From: Sclerodactyla briareus | Taxonomy: Eukaryota > Echinodermata > Holothuroidea > Dendrochirotida > Sclerodactylidae | Reading direction: 5' to 3' | Assembly: GCA_026419785.1 (NCBI GenBank) | Contig: JAODTK010000234.1 | Coordinates: forward strand, 62,001 to 126,000 | DNA: 64,000 bases | Shown: positions 2,883 to 39,684 of the stretch, piece by piece | Position numbering within the stretch: position 1 is the stretch's first letter | Layout: the number at the start of each line of letters is the position of its first letter | Translations under genes and position numbers: made by a program | The notes under the pieces: generated by a model | Seen by the model: the letters and a program-made list of their open reading frames with translations, nothing else | Databases searched by the model: none | What the model was told of the DNA's origin: nothing

Positions 2883-3056
2883 ATAAAACACTCTAGACAT
2901 TTTGAAAAGTCGGTCTTCATAGGTAGAAAAATAAGGCTTATATAGAAGAAAAATCACTCTTGAGAATTAAAAAAAAGTTGGTCTTAAAGGTTAGAAAAAT
3001 AAAGGATTATAGAAAATAAATCACTCTAGACATTGTAAAAAAGTAGGTCTCAAATT
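2883..3056 (-). repeat. Short tandem repeat in the LINE 3' tail
   Basis: About 2.5 copies of a ~68-bp AT-rich unit carrying AAATCACTCT and GGTTAGAAAAATAA lie just past the C-terminal codons of the LINE reverse transcriptase on the - strand. CR1/L2-type LINEs commonly carry short tandem repeats in their 3' UTR, so this is probably the tail of the same element. Confidence 0.55.
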
Positions 3057-4530
3057 CCTTTAAAAACATTAGATATCTCCAAAGTGCAGAGATTCGATGG
3101 GAGGCTGTTCCAAACTGCAAGAGCAGCAGCGGAGAAATGTCTATCCCCGTAGAAAATGGTCCTCGAGTCGTGAGGGGTGCCGAAGAAGACGCTGCGATGA
3201 CGAGCGAAGAGACCGGCCAGGTTAACTGTATTCATCCGATGAGATCTGAGATATAGGCTGGAGCATGTGTGAGTGAGTTTAAAGGTCATCCATCGCTATC
3301 TTGTAGTTGATGCGGTATTCAATCAGGCAGCCAGTGTAGTCGCGGAGGTAGGTGTAGTGTTTCACTGCCTTCACTTGAACAGGTAACTAGACGGGCAGCG
3401 GAATTCCGTACCCGTGTAGCTTGATAAATCGTTTGATGGTAATCCATATAAAAAGCCATTACAATAAGCCAAGGCGTGGATTGGGACGAAGAGATGAAAC
3501 AAGCTGCTCGGTAGGACCTTTCTGTCCAAGATATCTGATTAGCTGACCGATCTGGATTGCGAAGCTGGCCGACGGTACAATGTTCACAGTGTTTTAATGT
3601 TGAGTTTCGAAAGTCCAGGACGGCAACCTAGGGCTCTGCGCAACACTGAAACCTCAACGAACATCATCAACGGCGATTTTCGGGAACGGTGGGCACTTCA
3701 TGAACTTGGACGTGATATGTAAAATGTCCGTTTTAGAATCATTAAAACATCAAACTTATTGCGAATGCTCAGACCGTGATTTACACGGAGGCAGAACTCC
3801 AAACGATCCACTGCCTTGGGCAACACGATTGCACGGTGCATGGAAAGATAAATCTGAGTGTCGTCAGAGCATTTACAAAATATGTTGATACGTTGTGGCC
3901 ATTGAGATATCACTGAGTGGGGTTTGTAGATACATACTGAAAATGACCGAGCACTGACCCTCGTGGAACACCATCATTTAAAGAAATGGATCAGAATAAG
4001 ACATGGTACCCAGCATTGACTTGGTAAATGCGATCTCAAAATAAGATCGAAACATTTCAGGGGTGTGCCAACAAGACATATCGGGACGTCAGTAGGTCGC
4101 GTTTGTTGATATCATGGGCGATAGTATCGAAGGCCAGCTTAGAAATCAAGCAGCACCAAAATAACCTCTTGGTGCCGATCAACAGCATCCAAAACATCGT
4201 TATTGGAATATGCAGCATCACTGTCTCTGTGCTATGCAACACATTTCCGGTGGTAGGGTCAGAGTGATTTCGGGAGCGAAACAGTTCCGATGGAGATGAA
4301 CGATTCAGCTGGGCTGCCTGGCAGCTGCATGCTTGATGACTTTGAAGATGAACTTCGGGTTGGATATTGACGGTAATGTGGGAGGTCATTGCCGGTTCAG
4401 GTGGGTTTCTTCAGGAGGGGTACAACCTGCCAAATCTTCAGTGAATCAGGTATAACTCCAGTTGACACAAATAATGATTGCTACAATCAATGAGGGAGCA
4501 GGTGATCAAGATGACTTGAGGAGGACGGTA
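3053..4530 (-). pseudogene. Degenerate non-LTR retrotransposon reverse transcriptase (CR1/L2 type)
   Basis: Read on the - strand in shifting frames, this segment shows the reverse-transcriptase landmarks of a CR1/L2-like LINE in the right order. Near 4450-4380 is a VPLLKKPT-like start followed by NDLPHYR. Near 4140 is LAFDTIAHDI (motif A region). Near 3860 is SDDTQIYLSM, the YADD-box region with the first residues changed. Near 3290-3070 is the C-terminal signature YGDRHFSAAALAVWNSLPSN. Stops and frameshifts separate all of these, so the copy is dead. The endonuclease domain and 5' end are missing, the usual 5' truncation. Direct repeats lie on both sides. Confidence 0.85.
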
Positions 4531-6834: not shown

Positions 6835-8700
6835 CATTTTTGATTCCTTGACGAAGTCAGGAGGAGGAATCTATGCAGTCACGTAGTTGTGGTGTGTGTT
6901 GTGCTGTGTGTTGTTTTGGGTGTGTTATTGTGTGGTGTGGGTAGTGTGTGTGGATGCGTTTGTGGATCCAGTAGAACGGGGACACACACGCGGATCCTTT
7001 CACGTTAACTGGGGATACGCGCGCGCAACCGGGGATATCCCGTGTGTTTGTTCCCCGTTTCCCATAGGAAAACGCCCCACAAAAAAAAAACGGAATGGGG
7101 ATATCCCCGGTTCGGGTGTTTCCCTTAAAAACTGCTTAAAAAAATGATACTTGTAGTGGTTGGGGTACCCTATGTAGGTGTGGGCACTGATGCTCCCCAT
7201 TCCATGTGAAAGATCCATGTCCGTTTGTGCGATCTCCCGTTTGGCGCCCTACACCAGGTAGGGGTGGTGGTTGTGACGCCCAGCTTGAAAACACGATACA
7301 TTGATCAGGTCTGGGTAGGTAAGCTCATCTTAAGATGTGTGTGCGTTGAACACGATAATTCAACCCCACCAGGATGGATGAAGCTCATTACTTGGTATGG
7401 TGTTCCCCTGATGAGTTCATGAACCTATTTTTTGGGGTCAGGTCAGAGGTCATCTGAGGTCACCAGAGTCAAAGTAGAAAACCTTGTAACACAGAGTCCA
7501 GAATGGTGGTATGATTCAAGTGAAATTAGGTGTATAGATTTTCTTATGGGGAGTACAGGAAACCCTATCGTTTTGGTTCATGGTCGGGGTGATGTGAATT
7601 TTGGTCAAGAACGGAAAATTTGTGAAAATTTGAATATTTTGGCCATTTGGCTTGTAAACACGATTGACTCGACCCCACCTGGATGGATGGAAGGTCATAA
7701 TTGTTATGTGGCCCATGATGAGTACATTAACCCTATGTTTTGGGGTCGGTCCAGAGGTCATCTGGCACCAGAGGTCAAAGTCTGGACAACCTTGTAAACA
7801 CGATAGTCAGAATGGTGGTCTGATCAAGTTGAAATTAGTGTATAGGCTTTCTTATGGGGATTACAGGAACCCTATTGGTTTGGTTCAGGTCAGGAGTGAA
7901 TTTTGTCGAACAGTAGAAAATTGGTGAGGAAAATTCGTTATTTGGCCAATTTTGGCTTGTAAACACGATTACTCGACCCACCAGGACTGGATGAAGCCTC
8001 ATACGTGTATGTGTGTTCCATGATGAGTACTGAACCCTATGTTTTGGGTCAGTCAGAGGTCCCAGGGTCAAAGTCTGAAAAAACCTTGTAAACACGATAA
8101 GTCCAGCATGGTTGGTCGGACCAAGTTGAAATCAGTGTATCGCTGTCTATGTATGGGGAGTACAGAAACCCTTATGGTTTTGGTTCAGGTCGGGGTGAAT
8201 TGTGGTCGAAAATAGAAAAATTTTGTGAAAATTGATATTTGTGCCAATTTGGCTTGTAAACACGAATACCGACCCACCCGGATTGGATTGAAGCTCAGAA
8301 ATTGTATGTGTGTTCCCCATGATGAGTACAGAACCCTATTGTTTTTGGGGTAAGGTTCAAGGTCTCTGAGTCCACCAGAGGTCAAAGTCTGAAAACCTTG
8401 TAAAAAGAAAAGTCCATAATGTTTGGTCTGATCAAAGTTGGAAATAGGTGTAAAGATTTCGTATGGGAGTACATGAACCATATTGTTTTTGTACCAAAGG
8501 CGGGGTGACTGAGGCTCAGATTGGTTTGTGTATTCCCCATGATGCTACATGAACCCTTTGTTTGGGGGTCAGGTCGGAGTCATCTAAGGGTACCAGAGTT
8601 CAAAGTCTAAACGTGAAATTTAGTGTGAGCTTCTTACAAGGGTACAGGGAACCCTTTAGGGGTTGGGATAAATTGGAATTTTGTCAGAAGTTATGTTGCC
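6835..8700. repeat. Family A repeat, tandem units of about 305 bp, 5-6 copies
   Basis: The array opens with the family head TTTTTGATTCCTTGACGAAG...TCTATGCAGTCA and a GT-rich run. Units then carry TTGTAAACACGATAA, GACCCCACCTGGATGGATG, CCATGATGAGTACATGAACC, TTTTGGGGTCAGGTCAGAGG and AGTCCAGAATGGTTGGTCTG in that order. The unit boundary returns near 7358, 7666, 7970 and 8268. The same family appears at about 16.97, 19.5-20.4, 21.8-23.1, 28.3, 54.4 and 57.1 kb, always in the same orientation. Open frames inside are shadows of the repeat. Confidence 0.9.
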
Positions 8701-19616: not shown

Positions 19617-20440
19617 CTGTTTGGCTGTGTGAATACAATTACTCGACCCCACCTGGATGGATGAGGCTCATACTTGGTATGTGTGTTCCCCATGATGAGT
19701 ACATGAACCCTATTGTTTTGGGGTAAGGTCAGAGGTCATCTGAGGTCACCAGAGGTCAAAGTATGAAAACCTTGTGAACACGATAAGTCCAGAATGGTTG
19801 GTCTGAATCGGGTTCAAATTTGGTTTGTTGCTTTCTTATGGGAGTACAGGAACCCTATTGTTTTTGGCTTAGGTCGGGGTGAATTTTAGTCAAAAATAGA
19901 AAATTTGTGAAAAGTCAATAATTTGGCCAATTTTGGCTTGTGAACACAATAACCTCGACCCCACCTGGATGGATGAGGCTCATACTTGGTATGTGTGTTC
20001 CCCATGATGAGTACATGAACCCTATTGTTTTGAGGTCAGGTCAGAGGTCTTCTGAGATCACAGAGGTCAAAGTCTGAAAACCTTGTGAACACGATAAGTC
20101 CAGAATGGTTGGTCTGATTAGGTTCAAATTTGGTGTGTAGCTTCTTATGGGGAGTACATGTACCCTATTGTTTTTGGTATAGGTCGGGGGTGAATTTTGA
20201 TCAGAAATGGAAAAATTGTGATTAAGTCATAATTTGGCCAATGTTGGCTTTGTGAACACGTCCTCGACTCCCCTGAAATGGGATGAGCTCTCGTACGTGG
20301 TATATGTGTTCTCCCCTGATGGAGTACAAAACAAAATGAAAAAACCCCTATTGTTTTGAGGTCAGTCAGAGGTCATCTGAGGTCACCAGAGGTCAAAGTA
20401 TGAAAACCTTGTGAACACGATAAGTCCTGAATGGGTTACA
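19540..20440 (+). repeat. Family A repeat, about 2.7 tandem units of ~320 bp
   Basis: This is the least diverged copy set of family A in the window. It opens with CTATGCAGTCATG and a (GT)n run, then shows three successive units with near-identical CGACCCCACCTGGATGGATG and CCATGATGAGTACATGAACC blocks. It ends 40 bp before the next CYB5R4 exon. Confidence 0.9.
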
Positions 20441-21245: not shown

Positions 21246-21643
21246 AGTGCATGTAGAGATATTTCACCAAACCCTTTGATGTCTTATGTCTTTTCTTACC
21301 TTGATATTTCCGGTAGGCTGGATTGAATCGACAGACAGGCAGGATTCAACCCGTGGGCCATCCATCATTTGGGAACCCATGGTCTAAAGCCTGATGGGAT
21401 GTGTGCATTTTGCCTTTTAGTACCCGATCAAACTTTTATATCAGCATTCAGCAGCCTGAAAATGTGACAAAATTCTCAACAGCTTCCACTGGAAGTTGAA
21501 CCTATATTATTCGAACCTCTTATGACAGCCATGCAATACTATAACTATACTATATATTCCTTACTATGAACACAATACATCACATACATATCTGCTATAT
21601 GATATTCATCAGGAACATATTCTTATCACTTTATTCCTGGCAG

Positions 21644-21784
21644 AATTGATATTCAGGCCTTGCAGGGTTTGTGAAGTTGCTGAGGTGAGCCACGATACCA
21701 AGCTGATGACCTTTGAACTACCTCAAGGGACCACGATACATGCTCCTATAGGCTACCATGTGTACCTACAAAAAGAAATTAATG
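21644..21784 (+). CDS. CYB5R4: CYB5R4 exon: start of the FAD-binding reductase domain
   Basis: This 141-nt exon encodes LIFRPCRVCEVAEVSHDTKL, then MTFELPQGTTIHAPIGYHVY and LQKEIN. It matches the first strands of the b5-reductase FAD domain (C.L......DT.L....LP......PIGQHVYL in vertebrate CYB5R4). The acceptor is TTATTCCTGGCAG. The donor is G|GTAAAG in phase 1 and joins exactly to the next exon. The reductase domain takes electrons from NADH through FAD and passes them to the b5 heme. No frameshift is seen. Confidence 0.92.
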
Positions 21785-21829
21785 GTAAAGTGACTTTCAT
21801 ATTTTCTGTGAAAAGCAGATTTTTTATTT

Positions 21830-23060
21830 CTTGACAAAGTTCAGGAATCTACGCAGTCATGACAGCTGTGTGTGTGCGTATGTGACGCCCAGCTTGTAAA
21901 CATGATAACTTGACGTCACCTGGGTGGATCAAGCTCATACTTGGTATGTGTGTTTCAATAATGAGCAATTAACCCTATTGTTTTGTGTCGGTCAGAGGTC
22001 ATTTGAGGTCACCAGAAATCAAAGTCCGAATACCTTGTAAACACGATAAGTCCAGAATGGTTGGTTCAATCAAACTCAAATTTGGTTTATAGCTTCCTTA
22101 TGGGAAGTACAGGAACTTAATGTTTTCGGTGTAGTTGTAGATAGGGTATTCTTGGTCAAGAGTAGAAATTTTGTGAAAAGTCATCATTTATGCCAAATTT
22201 AGCTTGTAAATACGAAAATTCAACCCCATCTAGATGGATGAAGCTCGTTCTTGATGTTTGAGTTCCCCATAATGAGTGCATGGACCCTATTGTTTTGGGG
22301 TCAGGTCAGGAGCCATCTGAGGTCAGCTAGTGGTCAAGTCTAAAACCTTAAACACGATCTGTTCCCGAATGGTTTATTCGATCAATTGAAATTTGGTGTA
22401 TAGTTTCCATATGGAGAGCCAGGGAACCCTATTGCTGTTTTTGTAGATCGGGGGTAATTTTTGGTTGAAAATGGAAATTTTGTGGAAAATCATCAAATTG
22501 ACTAGATTTAGCTTGTAAATACGATAATTTGAGCTCATCTAGCCCATCTATGGAGACCTCATACTTGATATGTGTCACCCATGATGAGTATATGAGCCCA
22601 ATTGTTTTGGGTAAGGTCAGAGGTGAACAGAGGTCCAGTTGGAATATCTTGTAAACACAATAAGTCAAGGATGCTTGGTCTGATCAAATTGAAATTTGGT
22701 GTATAGTTTCCATATGGAGAGCCAGGGAACCCTATTGCTGTTGGTTGAGATCGGGGGTAATTTTTGGTTGAAAATGGAAATTTTGTGGAATGGAAAATCA
22801 TCAAATTGACTAGATTTAGCTTGTAAATACGATAATTTGAGCTCATCTAGCCCATCTATGGAGACCTCATACTTGATATGTGTCACCCATGATGAGTATA
22901 TGAGCCCAATTGTTTTGGGTAAGGTCAGAGGTGAACAGAGGTCCAGTTGGATATCCTTGTAAACACAATAAGTCAAGGATGCTTGGTCTGATCAAATTGA
23001 AATTTGGTACATGGTTGTCTTCTCAAAGAGTACAGGAATAATATCAAGATGGTGTCTCTG
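21830..23060 (+). repeat. Family A repeat, about 4 units, two nearly identical
   Basis: The array starts with TTCTTGACAAAG...CTACGCAGTCATGACA. Two consecutive units (about 22380-22680 and 22690-22985) are almost identical, including AATTTGAGCTCATCTAGCCC and GTATATGAGCCCAATTG, so a recent tandem duplication happened inside an old array. Confidence 0.88.
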
Positions 23061-24699: not shown

Positions 24700-26400
24700 A
24701 TTTTTGATTCCTTGGACGTGAGTCCCAGGAATCTAGCAGTCACTCGTGCGTGTGTGTGTGTTTTGTGTATTATGTATGTGTGTATGTATGTATGGTAACG
24801 CCTACCCCTTGTAATCAGGTAAGTCCCAGCATGTGCTGGTTGGGATCAAGTTCAAACTTGGTGGGTTGCTTCCCATGATGATGACATGAACCGCTATTTA
24901 TTGTTTATGCGTAGGGTCACTTTGGGCAAAAATGAAACTTGTACCGTTCTGGTATTTTGGGCACTTTTACCTGTAATCAGCAAAGTCCAACCTGCCTGGG
25001 GGGATGCAATTTCAAATTTGGTGGTGTGCTTCCCATGATGAGTACATGAACGCTATTTTATGTTGTATGAGTAGGGGGTCATTTTTTGGGCAAAAAGTGG
25101 AACTTGTAAAATTCGGTATTTTGGGGCAATTTTACCTTGTAATCAGGCAAAGTCCAACATGCCTGCTGGATCAATTCAAACTTGATGGGTGTGGCTCCCC
25201 ATGATGAGTACATGAACGCTATTAATTGGTGTATGAGTAGGGGTCAATTTTGGGCAACAAGTTGAAACTTGTAAAATTCTGTATTTTGGGCACTTTGAAA
25301 ACCTTGTAATCAGGCAAATCCAACATGCCTGTTGGATCAGTTCAAACGTTGTGGTGTGCTTCCCATGGTGAGTACCATAACGCTATTTATTGTTGTATGG
25401 GTAAGGGTCAATTTTGGGCAAAAAGTGGGAACTTTGGAAAATTCTGGGGTATTTTTGGGGGGCCCCAAAAAAACCTTTCCTTGTAATCAGCAGCCAAAGT
25501 CCAACATGCCTGGTGGGATCAAGTTCAAACTTGGTGGGTGTCTTCCCATGAATGAGTGACATGAATGGCTAATTCATGTTGTATGGGTAGGGGAGCAATT
25601 GGGAAAAGAGGGAACTTGTAAAATTCTCCTATTTTGGGCACTTTTACCTTGTAATCAGGCAAAGTCCAACTGCCTTGTGGGATCAAGTTCAAACTTGTGG
25701 GGTGTGCTCCCCATGGGACTACATAATGTATTTATTGTTGTATGGGGTAGGGGTCAATTTTGGGCGAAAAGGTGGGAATCCTTTGTAAATTATGGTATTT
25801 TGGGGGCACTTTTCCCTTGTAATCGGCACAGTCCAACATGCCTGGTGGAATCATGTTCAAAACTGGTGGGTTGCTTTCCCCATGATAGTAACAGAACGGC
25901 TATTTATTGTTGTATGAGGTAGGGGGTCACTTTTGGCAAAAAGTGGAAATTTGTAAATTCTGGTATTTTGGGTTCTTTTACCTTGTAATCAGGCAAAGTC
26001 CAACATGCCTGTGGGATCATGTTCAAACTTGGTGGGTGTGCTTCCTCATGATTAGTTACATGAACGCTATTTATTGTTGTATGAACAGGGGTCAATTTTG
26101 GGCAAAAAGCGAAACATGTAAAATCCCGTAATTTGGGCACTTTTAACCTTTAATCAGCAAATTCCAACATGCCTGGTGGATCAAGTTCAAACTTGTGGAT
26201 GGGTGTGCTTACCATGATGAGTACATGAACGCTTATTTATTGTTGTTTGTACGACAGTTCAAGGGCGGACCATCATAAAACGGCTGGTAAAATTCTGGTA
26301 TTTTTGGAAGATCTACTTTTTTTTACCTTGATAATCAGGCTAGGTTCAACCTGCTGGGCGGTCGAAACATGTCCTAGTACATTATGCTATTGATTCAGTT
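24700..26400 (+). repeat. Tandem array, unit about 165 bp, about 9 copies
   Basis: Units carry CTTGTAATCAGGCAAAGTCC, AACATGCCTGGTGGGATCAA, CCATGATGAGTACATGAACG, CTATTTATTGTTGTATG and GGGTCAATTTTGGGCAAAAA. The word CAACATGCCTG returns near 24988, 25160, 25325, 25502, 25840, 26000 and 26166. The array opens with the family A head (CCATTTTTGATTCCTTGGACG, a GT run), so it is a half-unit relative of family A. Many copies differ by single-base indels in homopolymers. Confidence 0.9.
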
Positions 26401-36685: not shown

Positions 36686-36827
36686 GCGGTGCATGCATGC
36701 AGCAGTATATTGGGATGCTAACTTCCACGAGTATGGAAAGCCCTGCTGGAAAGAAATACCTATTTGACTGCTTACCATATATTCCATTTTATGGTAGCAT
36801 ATATTCCATTTTATGGTAGCATATATT

Positions 36828-36856
36828 CACAGCCAATGGGAGCAAGGAATATATGG
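36828..36856 (+). repeat. CCAAT-containing boundary module 1
   Basis: CACAGCCAATGGGAGCAAGG, followed by AATATATGG. This is one of four copies of a ~28-bp module (others at 37122-37148, 38294-38322 and 38456-38485) that close the inner and outer ends of both subterminal arrays, pointing inward in each array. Confidence 0.8.
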
Positions 36857-37121
36857 TAGCATTAAATCGAATTTATGGTAGCATTAAATCGAATATATGC
36901 TACCATATATTCGAATATATGCTACCATATATTCGAATTTATGGTAGCATTAAATCGAATTTATGGTAGCATATATTCGATTTTATGGTAGCATTAAATC
37001 GAATATATGCTACCATATATTCGAATATATGCTACCATATATTCGAATTTATGGTAGCATTAATCGAATATATGCTACCATAATATTCGAATTAATGGTA
37101 GCATATATTCGATTTATGCTA

Positions 37122-37148
37122 CCATATATTCCTGCCTTCCCATTGGCC
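37122..37148 (-). repeat. CCAAT-containing boundary module 2
   Basis: This is the reverse complement of module 1, closing the inner end of the left array. Confidence 0.8.
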
Positions 37149-37252
37149 TTGTATGAACAGTCTATTCCTGTGTATAAAAAATATGGCTAACGAGGATTGC
37201 GCGCGCATATGACATTGTAATGCAACGTATCCCCTATATGCATTGTAGTACG

Positions 37253-37461
37253 TTACGCCGTCGTATATCGGCCGCGCTGAGTCCGAAAGTAGTATCGATG
37301 CTGTGATGTTACTCGTCGGAGACGAGTCGCCCAATCTTGGCATACTGAAGAGCTCTTCTCAGAATTACTAGTGTCAAAGGTAACTTGGAAAGTGGCCAAG
37401 ATCCAATGACTGTCCCTAACTACACTGAACACTCCCTCGTGTACTGGGACACTTCTAAATT
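37253..37461 (-). CDS. Unrecognised ORF inside the TIR element, possible second exon
   Basis: An open frame reads EFRSVPVHEGVFSVV, SHWILATFQVTF and CQDWATRLRRVTSQHRYYF and ends at a stop at 37253. Just upstream on the - strand is a good acceptor (TTTCTTTCTTGTAG). The frame is 1 base into the codon at that acceptor. It could follow the 37722-37985 frame as exon 2, but no convincing phase-1 donor is visible there, so the joint is unproven. The composition (Trp, Tyr, His, Arg mixture, no low complexity) looks protein-like. I do not recognise the family. Confidence 0.4.
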
Positions 37462-37721
37462 CTACAAGAAAGAAATACAACAGCGTATCTAATTGCTTCA
37501 CTATTCATTATATTGAACATTTAACCTATTGTCATCACCAACAAAACGTTATCTGTTATTATATCACTTAAAGCTTAAAATACTCATTACAACTTGACGG
37601 CAATTACGGCAATTTCAATGTCACTCCTTAATATCTGATCACTACTCATTAATTGCACCTAATTTCTGATCAATACTATTTCACTATCCAAATTCCTCAA
37701 ATCACTTGCTCTGTTAATTGA

Positions 37722-37985
37722 TTACATTACTTGGTGAAATTCTTTTACATTATTATAATTGCCTACTGCACGACATTCTAGTTTCCACTTGAATTGCAGG
37801 TACAACGCAGCTGCTCTCAAAATATCTCGAGTCAAAACATCTCGAGTGACTGAAAAACCTCCTCGCTGATTGTCATGTTCTGCCGCATTCCCACCTTGGG
37901 TATAAGTTGTCAAAACCCGACAGCAGTCATTCATTTCACGACGAAAATGATTAAGAAATTCCTCATTATCTGTTGGACGCGCCAT
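37722..37985 (-). CDS. Unrecognised ORF inside the TIR element, promoter-proximal
   Basis: An 87-codon frame starts at ATG 37985 in a good Kozak-like context (AAAATGG). It opens MARPTDNEEFLNHFRREMND and continues with CCRVLTTYTQGGNAAEHDNQ and RDILRAAALYLQFKW. A TATA-like GCTATATACC lies about 45 bp upstream, separated by GC-rich sequence. Possible donors sit near its end (CAA|GTAATG, AAT|GTAAAA), and a strong acceptor follows at 37462. I cannot assign a function. It may encode an element protein or a captured host fragment, or it may be chance. Confidence 0.45.
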   Translation of the reverse strand: MARPTDNEEFLNHFRREMNDCCRVLTTYTQGGNAAEHDNQRGGFSVTRDVLTRDILRAAALYLQFKWKLECRAVGNYNNVKEFHQVM

Positions 37986-38025
37986 TTTGACAATGCACAC
38001 GGGCGCGGCGCCGGCGCAGTCCACT

Positions 38026-38035
38026 AGGTATATAG
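38026..38035 (-). promoter_or_regulatory. TATA-like box upstream of the element's internal ORF
   Basis: On the - strand the sequence CTATATACC lies about 45 bp before the ATG at 37985. The intervening region is very GC-rich (GCGCCGGCGCCGCG). It resembles a core promoter, but no experimental support exists. Confidence 0.4.
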
Positions 38036-38293
38036 CGAGAGCAGAGAGCAAATGGCCAACTTGTGCGGAAAAAAATTATATCTACGGTTGGCGGTAAGCA
38101 AATGACAATGGGGATTGGTTATTTTCAAGGTAGTTGATTGGCCGAATATATGTAGCATTAAATCGAATTTATGGTAGCCTTTACTCGAATATATTAGTAT
38201 ATATTCGATTTAATGGTACCATAAACTCGATTTTATGGTAGCATATATTCGATTTAATGGTACCATAAACTCGATTTTATGGTAGCATATATT

Positions 38294-38322
38294 CACAGCC
38301 AATAGGAGGCAGGAATATATGG
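38294..38322 (+). repeat. CCAAT-containing boundary module 3
   Basis: CACAGCCAATAGGAGGCAGG, followed by AATATATGG, within the right array. Confidence 0.8.
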
Positions 38323-38455
38323 TAGCATATATTCGATTTAATGCTACCATAAATTCGAATATATGGTAGCATATATTAGAATTATGGTTGCATATATTCG
38401 ATTTAATGCTACCATATATTCGATTTAATGCTACCATAAATTCGATTTAATGCTA

Positions 38456-38485
38456 TCATATATTCCTGCCTTCCCATTGGCTGTG
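38456..38485 (-). repeat. CCAAT-containing boundary module 4
   Basis: The reverse-complement module near the outer end of the right array. It mirrors module 1. Confidence 0.8.
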
Positions 38486-38827
38486 GATATATGCTACCAT
38501 AAAATGGAATATATGCTACCATAAAATGGAATATAGGCTACATAAAAATGGTATTTCTGTCCAGCACGGCTTTCCATACACGAGAAGGCTACTGAGACAG
38601 GCGCTGGCTACAGTGACTTTCAGTTTCAGTTTGTCATAAAATAGAAACTCTCCAAGTTAAAATGCACTGAATACTGAAAGATGGCAGCGACAACCTATTT
38701 CTTGGAGTTCACCACAAATCCTGATATTGTCACGAACCATGGACCAGGTAAACCTGACAAATGTCCTTTAACCCTCGTTAGACTAGGCCTAACGTTACAC
38801 TTGCATTTATCTGTAGAATTCAATACA

Positions 38828-39684
38828 GAATGCGAGTCAACTCGCCGCAAGGGAAACTCGCCACAAGCCAAACTCGCCACAGGTAGAACGTGTGCCTGGA
38901 TGTATGAGATTAGTGTTAGGGATTAGGCCCAAGCCAGGGGTGAGGTTAGGTTCAGATTCCAATTACAAAGGTGTAGATGTGTCCGGCACTAGTGGAAGCG
39001 CCACTACGTTGGTTGTTTTCAGCTATATAACGAGTTATTAGGGACACAGTCAACTCGCCGCAAGTTAAACTCGCCGCAGAACAACGCGCCCGCACGTAAC
39101 TCGCCGCATGTCAATCTCGCCACACGTCAAACTCGCCGCATGTTTAACTCGCCACAGGTTCGAAACATCGTATAGGGCCATGATGATTATGAATGACTCC
39201 CCTACTATAGAGTTGTTTTTATCAAGGTGGCTGGTATTATGTACACTATTAAATAGTAGCTAATTAAAAAAAAATTGTTAAGATCGGAATAATATTACAG
39301 TATTACTTTGTGAATGTGGGGCTATATATCAGAGATTCTCTAGGCAAGATTTGGTGGCATGACACACAATGGGAGAATTGCCAGAATCGGAGGCTGGCTA
39401 CGCCCTACTCCAGAATTCTATGACTGATAATTGCACCTATTGTCCGGAACTCTGCAAGCGCTGATCATCCCTCGTTTCACAGTGGCCTACAATCGATTCA
39501 GTTGAATGAAGAACTATATCCACTTGTTTGGTCCACGCACCTTTATGACATACACCATTCTATCTGTGTCGAGTGTTGACGTGTGGACGACAGTTTGACG
39601 TGTGGCGAGTTAACATGCGGCGAGTGTGACGTGCGGCGAGTATTTCTGCGGCGAGTTTGTTTTGCGGCGAGTTGACTTGCATTC
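38828..39684. mobile_element. TIR element built of AACTCGCCGCA units
   Basis: The left end GAATGCGAGTCAACTCGCCG and right end CGGCGAGTTGACTTGCATTC are inverted repeats differing at one base. Inside, short units of about 15 bp (AACTCGCC(G/A)CA plus 3-5 variable bases) repeat in one orientation on the left (38836-38885, 39048-39160) and in the reverse orientation on the right (39600-39670). No coding capacity is seen. A target duplication is not obvious. It contains the second arm of the 36604/39411 inverted repeat. Confidence 0.78.
39411..39487 (-). repeat. Inverted-repeat arm paired with 36604-36685
   Basis: This is the reverse-complement copy of 36604-36685, including CACTGTGAAACGAGGGATGA and CCGGACAATAGGTG on the - strand. 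Confidence 0.8.

Follow-up and report, generated by a model that had tools for sequence, protein, structure and literature searches.

IS3EU is an IS-like superfamily that counted 45 families in Repbase in 2022, and the passages of PMC10045372 that treat it give TA..TA termini and usually 6-bp target duplications for IS3EU, and 6-bp duplications with mostly TA..TA ends for GingerRoot. A set of IS3EU families from rust fungi, as described in part of PMC12730594, combines 6-bp duplications with terminal inverted repeats (TIRs) longer than 30 bp and TAYGG..CCRTA ends; these families also carry an alpha-kinase or a TET/JBP gene. Styx, whose transposase is related to that of IS3EU, likewise makes 6-bp duplications (PMC10853768), and tandem repeats similar to IS3EU are mentioned in an oyster (two satellites) and a beetle (half of TCAST10) in passages of PMC8268682 and PMC5844308. 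Non-autonomous elements are placed, under the Repbase rule as worded in an excerpt of PMC4455052, by duplication length and by comparing terminal positions 1-11 with a member, one mismatch being permitted.

Foldback-like elements share a design and do not form a clade: their long TIRs consist of outer and tandem-repeat domains around a unique middle. In Galileo, of the P superfamily, TIRs of more than 1 kb are internally repetitive, the transposase has a THAP domain and the tandem repeats hold extra transposase-binding sites; the published discussion of Galileo describes such binding as still untested for the Foldback and Phantom repeats. The non-autonomous Tetris of Drosophila virilis has TIRs built of an outer flanking domain and AT-rich tandem repeats around a middle domain (PMC4079207, in part), and the Mutator/Foldback element Tm1 of root-knot nematodes has composite TIRs with a short motif of ~14 bp in variable number (PMC3169594, in part).

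Here we describe a bounded insertion of 1847 bp, at 36732-38578, in a 64,000-nt stretch of Sclerodactyla briareus DNA, which we call the window. Its layout is that of the Foldback-like design, and from its sequence we consider it probably a non-autonomous cut-and-paste DNA transposon of the IS3EU/GingerRoot type.

A bounded insertion with a 6-bp target duplication

The insertion begins with TATGGAAAGCC and ends with GGCTTTCCATA. These 11-base tips, perfectly inverted copies of each other, recur nowhere else in the window as exact matches; allowing one mismatch adds two sites, both within a tandem array at 22.4-22.7 kb. CACGAG adjoins each tip (Table 1), and because the bases beyond it differ (AACTTC left of the left copy, AAGGCT right of the right copy), the duplication is 6 bp long. 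Aligning the two ends gave 27 matches in 29 bases at the tip; extended to the outer ~100 bp, the alignment has 101 columns, of which 90 match and three are gaps. The ends and the exact CACGAG at both flanks had been reported in the first-pass annotation, and we found them where it had placed them, with a terminal repeat longer than it had reported.

The window holds 2032 pairs of TAYGG..CCRTA 60-12000 bp apart, and a single pair, that of the element, is flanked by equal outer 6-mers; 18 of its 20 inverted end bases match. Since 0.5 such pairs are expected by chance from equal 6-mers alone, the case for an insertion lies in the combination of features. Among 1592 inverted 11-mer pairs in the window, 21 have equal flanking 6-mers, and among the matches listed (10 of 21), nine besides the element's tips sit wholly within its repeat-bearing arms. 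A BLAST search for a second copy within the window returned 12 short rows outside the element, the best of 23 bp with an E value of 0.008, which we took as chance. The insertion is real and was correctly delimited by the first-pass annotation.

Searched in viral contigs, the tip pattern occurred in 12 stretches; all represent one related viral sequence that diverges directly after the 18-base match, and we dismissed them as chance.

Table 1 Features of the insertion and its flanks, in window coordinates.
Feature	Position	Strand	Basis
Target site duplication, left copy (CACGAG)	36726..36731		Adjoins left tip
Outer terminal inverted repeat, left	36732..36832	+	End-to-end alignment
Left array, 22-bp near-palindromic units between inverted CCAAT words	36833..37147	+	Unit scan, folding
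Unique core, ~1 kb, without convincing coding evidence	37148..38140		Pfam, NCBIfam, ORF-length tests (as 37155-38140)
TATA-like word TATAAAAA (putative)	37173..37180	+	Read from sequence
Open frame, 83 aa, possible second exon of the first-pass annotation	37256..37504	-	ORF list
87-codon ORF from ATG	37725..37985	-	ORF list; length within chance
TATA-like word CTATATAC upstream of 87-codon ORF (putative)	38028..38035	-	Read from sequence
Right inner array, 22-bp units	38141..38298	+	Unit scan
Right outer array between inverted CCAAT words	38299..38480	+	Unit scan, folding
Outer terminal inverted repeat, right	38481..38578	-	End-to-end alignment
Target site duplication, right copy (CACGAG)	38579..38584		Adjoins right tip

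Near-palindromic repeat arrays in both arms

From left to right, the element consists of an outer repeat of ~100 bp, an array, a 1-kb core, further arrays and the other outer repeat. Scanning for sites with at most two mismatches to ATGGTAGCAT or ATGCTACCAT yielded 30 sites, and we counted 29 of them as units, leaving out the two-mismatch site at 36836, which belongs to a CCAAT bracket. These near-palindromic 22-bp units occupy both arms in both orientations, each made up of a 10-bp near-palindrome and a 12-bp spacer. The 26 exact units comprise 13 copies of ATGGTAGCAT, 11 of ATGCTACCAT and two of ATGGTACCAT, the last a perfect palindrome; TCGA is present in 19 of the 26 spacers that follow them. 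For the 29 units, intervals within an arm measure 22 bp in 19 of 27 cases and 21-23 bp in 23 of 27. Because the unit is nearly self-complementary, the register is kept through flips and the two orientations, ATGGTAGCAT and ATGCTACCAT, are just two bases apart. The arrays lie where the first-pass annotation had placed them, and its term "mirror-image" is loose for orientations that differ at two bases; its wider claim, of an element with TIRs, palindromic arrays next to its ends and a 6-bp duplication, is supported.

Inverted pairs of CCAAT words enclose the left array (at 36833 and 37142) and the right outer one (at 38299 and 38476); four more CCAAT/ATTGG words are found within the core or on its margin. 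Between its CCAAT words, the left array folds into one long hairpin of -181.1 kcal/mol, compared with a mean of -65.1 kcal/mol for 100 shuffles (z = -19.05), and the fold of 38141-38480 reaches -147.5 kcal/mol (z = -13.68). Self-complementarity between halves amounts to 87% in the left array and 79% in the right (38296-38480). The two bracketed arrays match each other better in inverted (92%, 155 columns) than in direct orientation (85%, 170 columns), as expected for the arms of one TIR. Viral contigs gave 0 matches both to the 20-base CCAAT bracket and to the one 18-base form of the unit that was searched.

Coding potential of the core

The first-pass annotation had also assigned the element its own promoter-like gene. 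The TATA-like box and the 87-codon ORF that it named are both present, the latter running from 37985 to 37725 on the minus strand, with minus-strand CCAAT words upstream at 38114 and 38137. Dinucleotide shuffling of the core produced a longest ATG ORF of 87 codons or more 117 times in 1000, and 13 of 61 other segments of the core's size contain one; the 117-codon stop-to-stop frame of the core was matched or exceeded in 61 of 1000 shuffles and 15 of 61 segments. Single-sequence structure prediction for the 87-aa product was helical, with a mean pLDDT of 56.3. Searched singly, the core frames, including the 68- and 67-aa parts of the 37256..37504 frame, had no Pfam match. Four assumed splices matched PF18870 (HEPN_RES_NTD1) at E values of 0.0017, 0.0032, 9e-4 and 0.13, the best score of 20 bits lying below the gathering cut-off of 27.4 bits.

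Genomes were searched with PF18870: 10 viral records and 8 bacterial genomes gave 0 matches each, and among 299 genomes of one phylum seven matched at E ≤ 0.001, four of them over the cut-off. A test profile was built from five bacterial members, four that exceeded the cut-off and L137, which fell short of it; two partial matches (L135, L136) were excluded. Against this profile, 1102 to 1451 of 20000 random ORF pairs from the window equalled or surpassed the four splices; with five sequences behind it the profile is weak, and this negative result weakens the HEPN lead without disposing of it. Relatives of the 87-aa ORF were absent from viral contigs, 29 stretches of prokaryote contigs fitted the peptide pattern of an assumed splice with 0 confirmed, and an assumed splice had no relatives in plasmids or NCBIfam.

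A real two-exon gene on the minus strand, with its promoter at the right end and encoding either a small HEPN-like protein or an N-terminal portion of the protein of an autonomous element, would account for the PF18870 matches of the splices and for the putative CCAAT- and TATA-like words upstream; the second frame also contains, by eye, an R-x4-H word, which is the HEPN motif (PMC3710099). Against such a gene stand the sub-cut-off scores on assumed splices, the silence of the single frames, the performance of random ORF pairs, an ORF length within chance and the lack of relatives in NCBIfam, prokaryote contigs, virus contigs and plasmids. Weak, unrelated-looking matches are moreover common, with values of 0.0038 (a leucine-rich repeat protein among solved structures), 0.14 (Pfam ElaD-SseL-like_C) and 0.018 (Pfam, for a different frame of the window). 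We regard such a gene as very unlikely and the promoter-like gene as unsupported by these searches, and we take the core to be non-coding or a decayed remnant.

Superfamily assignment

Among the superfamilies it knew best, the first-pass annotation found none to fit a 6-bp duplication with these ends; on published ends and duplication, IS3EU does. The element has a 6-bp duplication, in the single copy flanked by CACGAG, its TATGG..CCATA ends fall within TA..TA and specifically within TAYGG..CCRTA, and its TIR exceeds 30 bp. The comparison spans five terminal bases and the duplication length, where the Repbase rule spans positions 1-11, and its TAYGG consensus comes from fungal families. An autonomous member of IS3EU/GingerRoot encodes an IS3/IS481-like DDE transposase; the element holds no recognisable transposase gene, and neither an alpha-kinase nor a TET/JBP gene was seen in it. 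It differs from IS3EU/GingerRoot in the palindrome arrays of its arms, a feature for which the IS3EU passages of PMC10045372 and PMC12730594 have no mention. IS3EU/GingerRoot membership is most likely, as judged from the ends and duplication of one copy that lacks a transposase.

With IS3EU membership drawn from five bases and a duplication length, the element might instead be a non-autonomous member of a different or undescribed superfamily that makes 6-bp duplications (the hAT6 group, Polinton derivatives or a new one), with TATGG at its end by chance. Termini are of the CA..TG type in hAT and of the AG..CT type in Polinton, unlike TATGG..CCATA, and we set the two aside on these termini alone. 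Both hAT6 (from a title in the reference list of PMC12730594) and Polinton (PMC10045372, in part) make 6-bp duplications, and arms of the Foldback-like kind have been documented in P-type (Galileo) and Mutator-type elements (Tm1, Phantom); the duplications, however, are 9 bp in Tm1 (PMC3169594, same excerpt) and 8-10 bp in Tetris (PMC4079207, same excerpt). We consider this reading unlikely. Dada elements also have 6-bp duplications; they are described in part of PMC3706591 as lacking TIRs and located in small RNA genes, and we set them aside because the element has long TIRs and because neither a tRNA nor an Rfam family passing its gathering score was found in the window. If the element were of the Tc1/mariner type, with TGGAAAGCC ends and TA as its duplication, the TA at both ends would be explained and the flanking CACGAG would be a coincidence. 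An exact 6-mer match beyond TA has a chance of ~1 in 4096, the flank match ends directly after the 6-mer, and equal 6-mers outside TA show that TA is not the whole duplication; this reading is scarcely credible.

Surrounding sequence

The element lies ~6 kb right of the last frame linked to a plus-strand cytochrome b5 reductase 4 (CYB5R4)-like gene. One CYB5R4-like exon, at 21526-21831 (+), matches Pfam FAD_binding_6 (5.5e-6) and solved CYB5R4 (4.2e-8); a second, at about 30447 (+), has a frame with a CVCGP motif, which we take to be that of CYB5R4. Pfam searches outside the element covered 20 of the 152 window frames of at least 75 aa, and FAD_binding_6 was the one convincing match; we dismissed three weak matches (0.018, 0.068, 0.079) as noise.

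Tandem arrays of ~308-311-bp units at 7372-8489, 19621-20434 and 22165-23008 resemble one another in their consensus around the phrase CATGATGAGTACATGAACCCTAT; a related phrase occurs in a ~166-bp array at 24807-26246, and all four may belong to a single dispersed satellite family. A 15-16-bp unit of the AACTCGCCGCAAG type forms short arrays that begin about 260 bp right of the element and occupy 38839-38881, 39049-39156 and 39592-39680, the last reversed. On the minus strand at 3053-3973, frames resemble by eye the end of a CR1/L2-like reverse transcriptase; a Pfam search of 3322-3627 within them had no match.

Discussion

We favor a non-autonomous IS3EU/GingerRoot-type element with Foldback-like arms. 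Because it carries no recognisable transposase, it would be moved in trans, with a DDE transposase from an autonomous relative elsewhere in the genome recognising the outer repeat, cutting at the TA ends and joining them to target positions 6 bp apart. The many array sites may assist as extra binding sites, presented on one face of the helix given that 22 bp is about two turns of DNA. Replication slippage and hairpin-mediated inversion, which the palindromic design of the arrays favors, may have changed array length and flipped units, and hairpin-mediated rearrangement would explain flips at constant register. The core may be filler, or else what remains of a longer element. Observed/expected CpG is 1.14 in the element and 0.54 in the rest of the window, all 32 other windows of the element's size being lower (maximum 1.04). 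High CpG and the intact duplication are compatible with a fairly recent insertion, and composition, not youth, may account for the CpG.

The arms invite comparison with Galileo, which shares the long, internally repetitive TIRs and differs in its superfamily, transposase and TIR length; we propose, by analogy, the role of its repeats for the arrays described here. Tetris resembles the element in domain order, AT-rich repeats and non-autonomy, and differs in its duplications and in units of ~220 bp, as given in the same part of PMC4079207, against near-palindromes of 22 bp. Tm1 is alike in its composite TIRs and differs in its duplications and in the asymmetric 7-bp tips beyond its inverted repeat (PMC3169594, in part). 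Among open-licence papers we saw no IS3EU element with Foldback arms in print. A bolder scenario, which we consider a long shot, would make this the first Foldback-type IS3EU family, its flipping 22-bp palindromes serving at once to land transposase at many sites and to form a self-inverting cruciform, and a small expressed two-exon gene, possibly HEPN-like and acting on RNA-based silencing, aiding its spread.

The 30-bp end offers a handle for finding the autonomous partner. If the assignment is true, an IS-like superfamily would join the P-type and Mutator-type elements already recorded with composite arms of Foldback style, lending weight to the view that repeat-rich arms evolve independently wherever many binding sites benefit a transposase.
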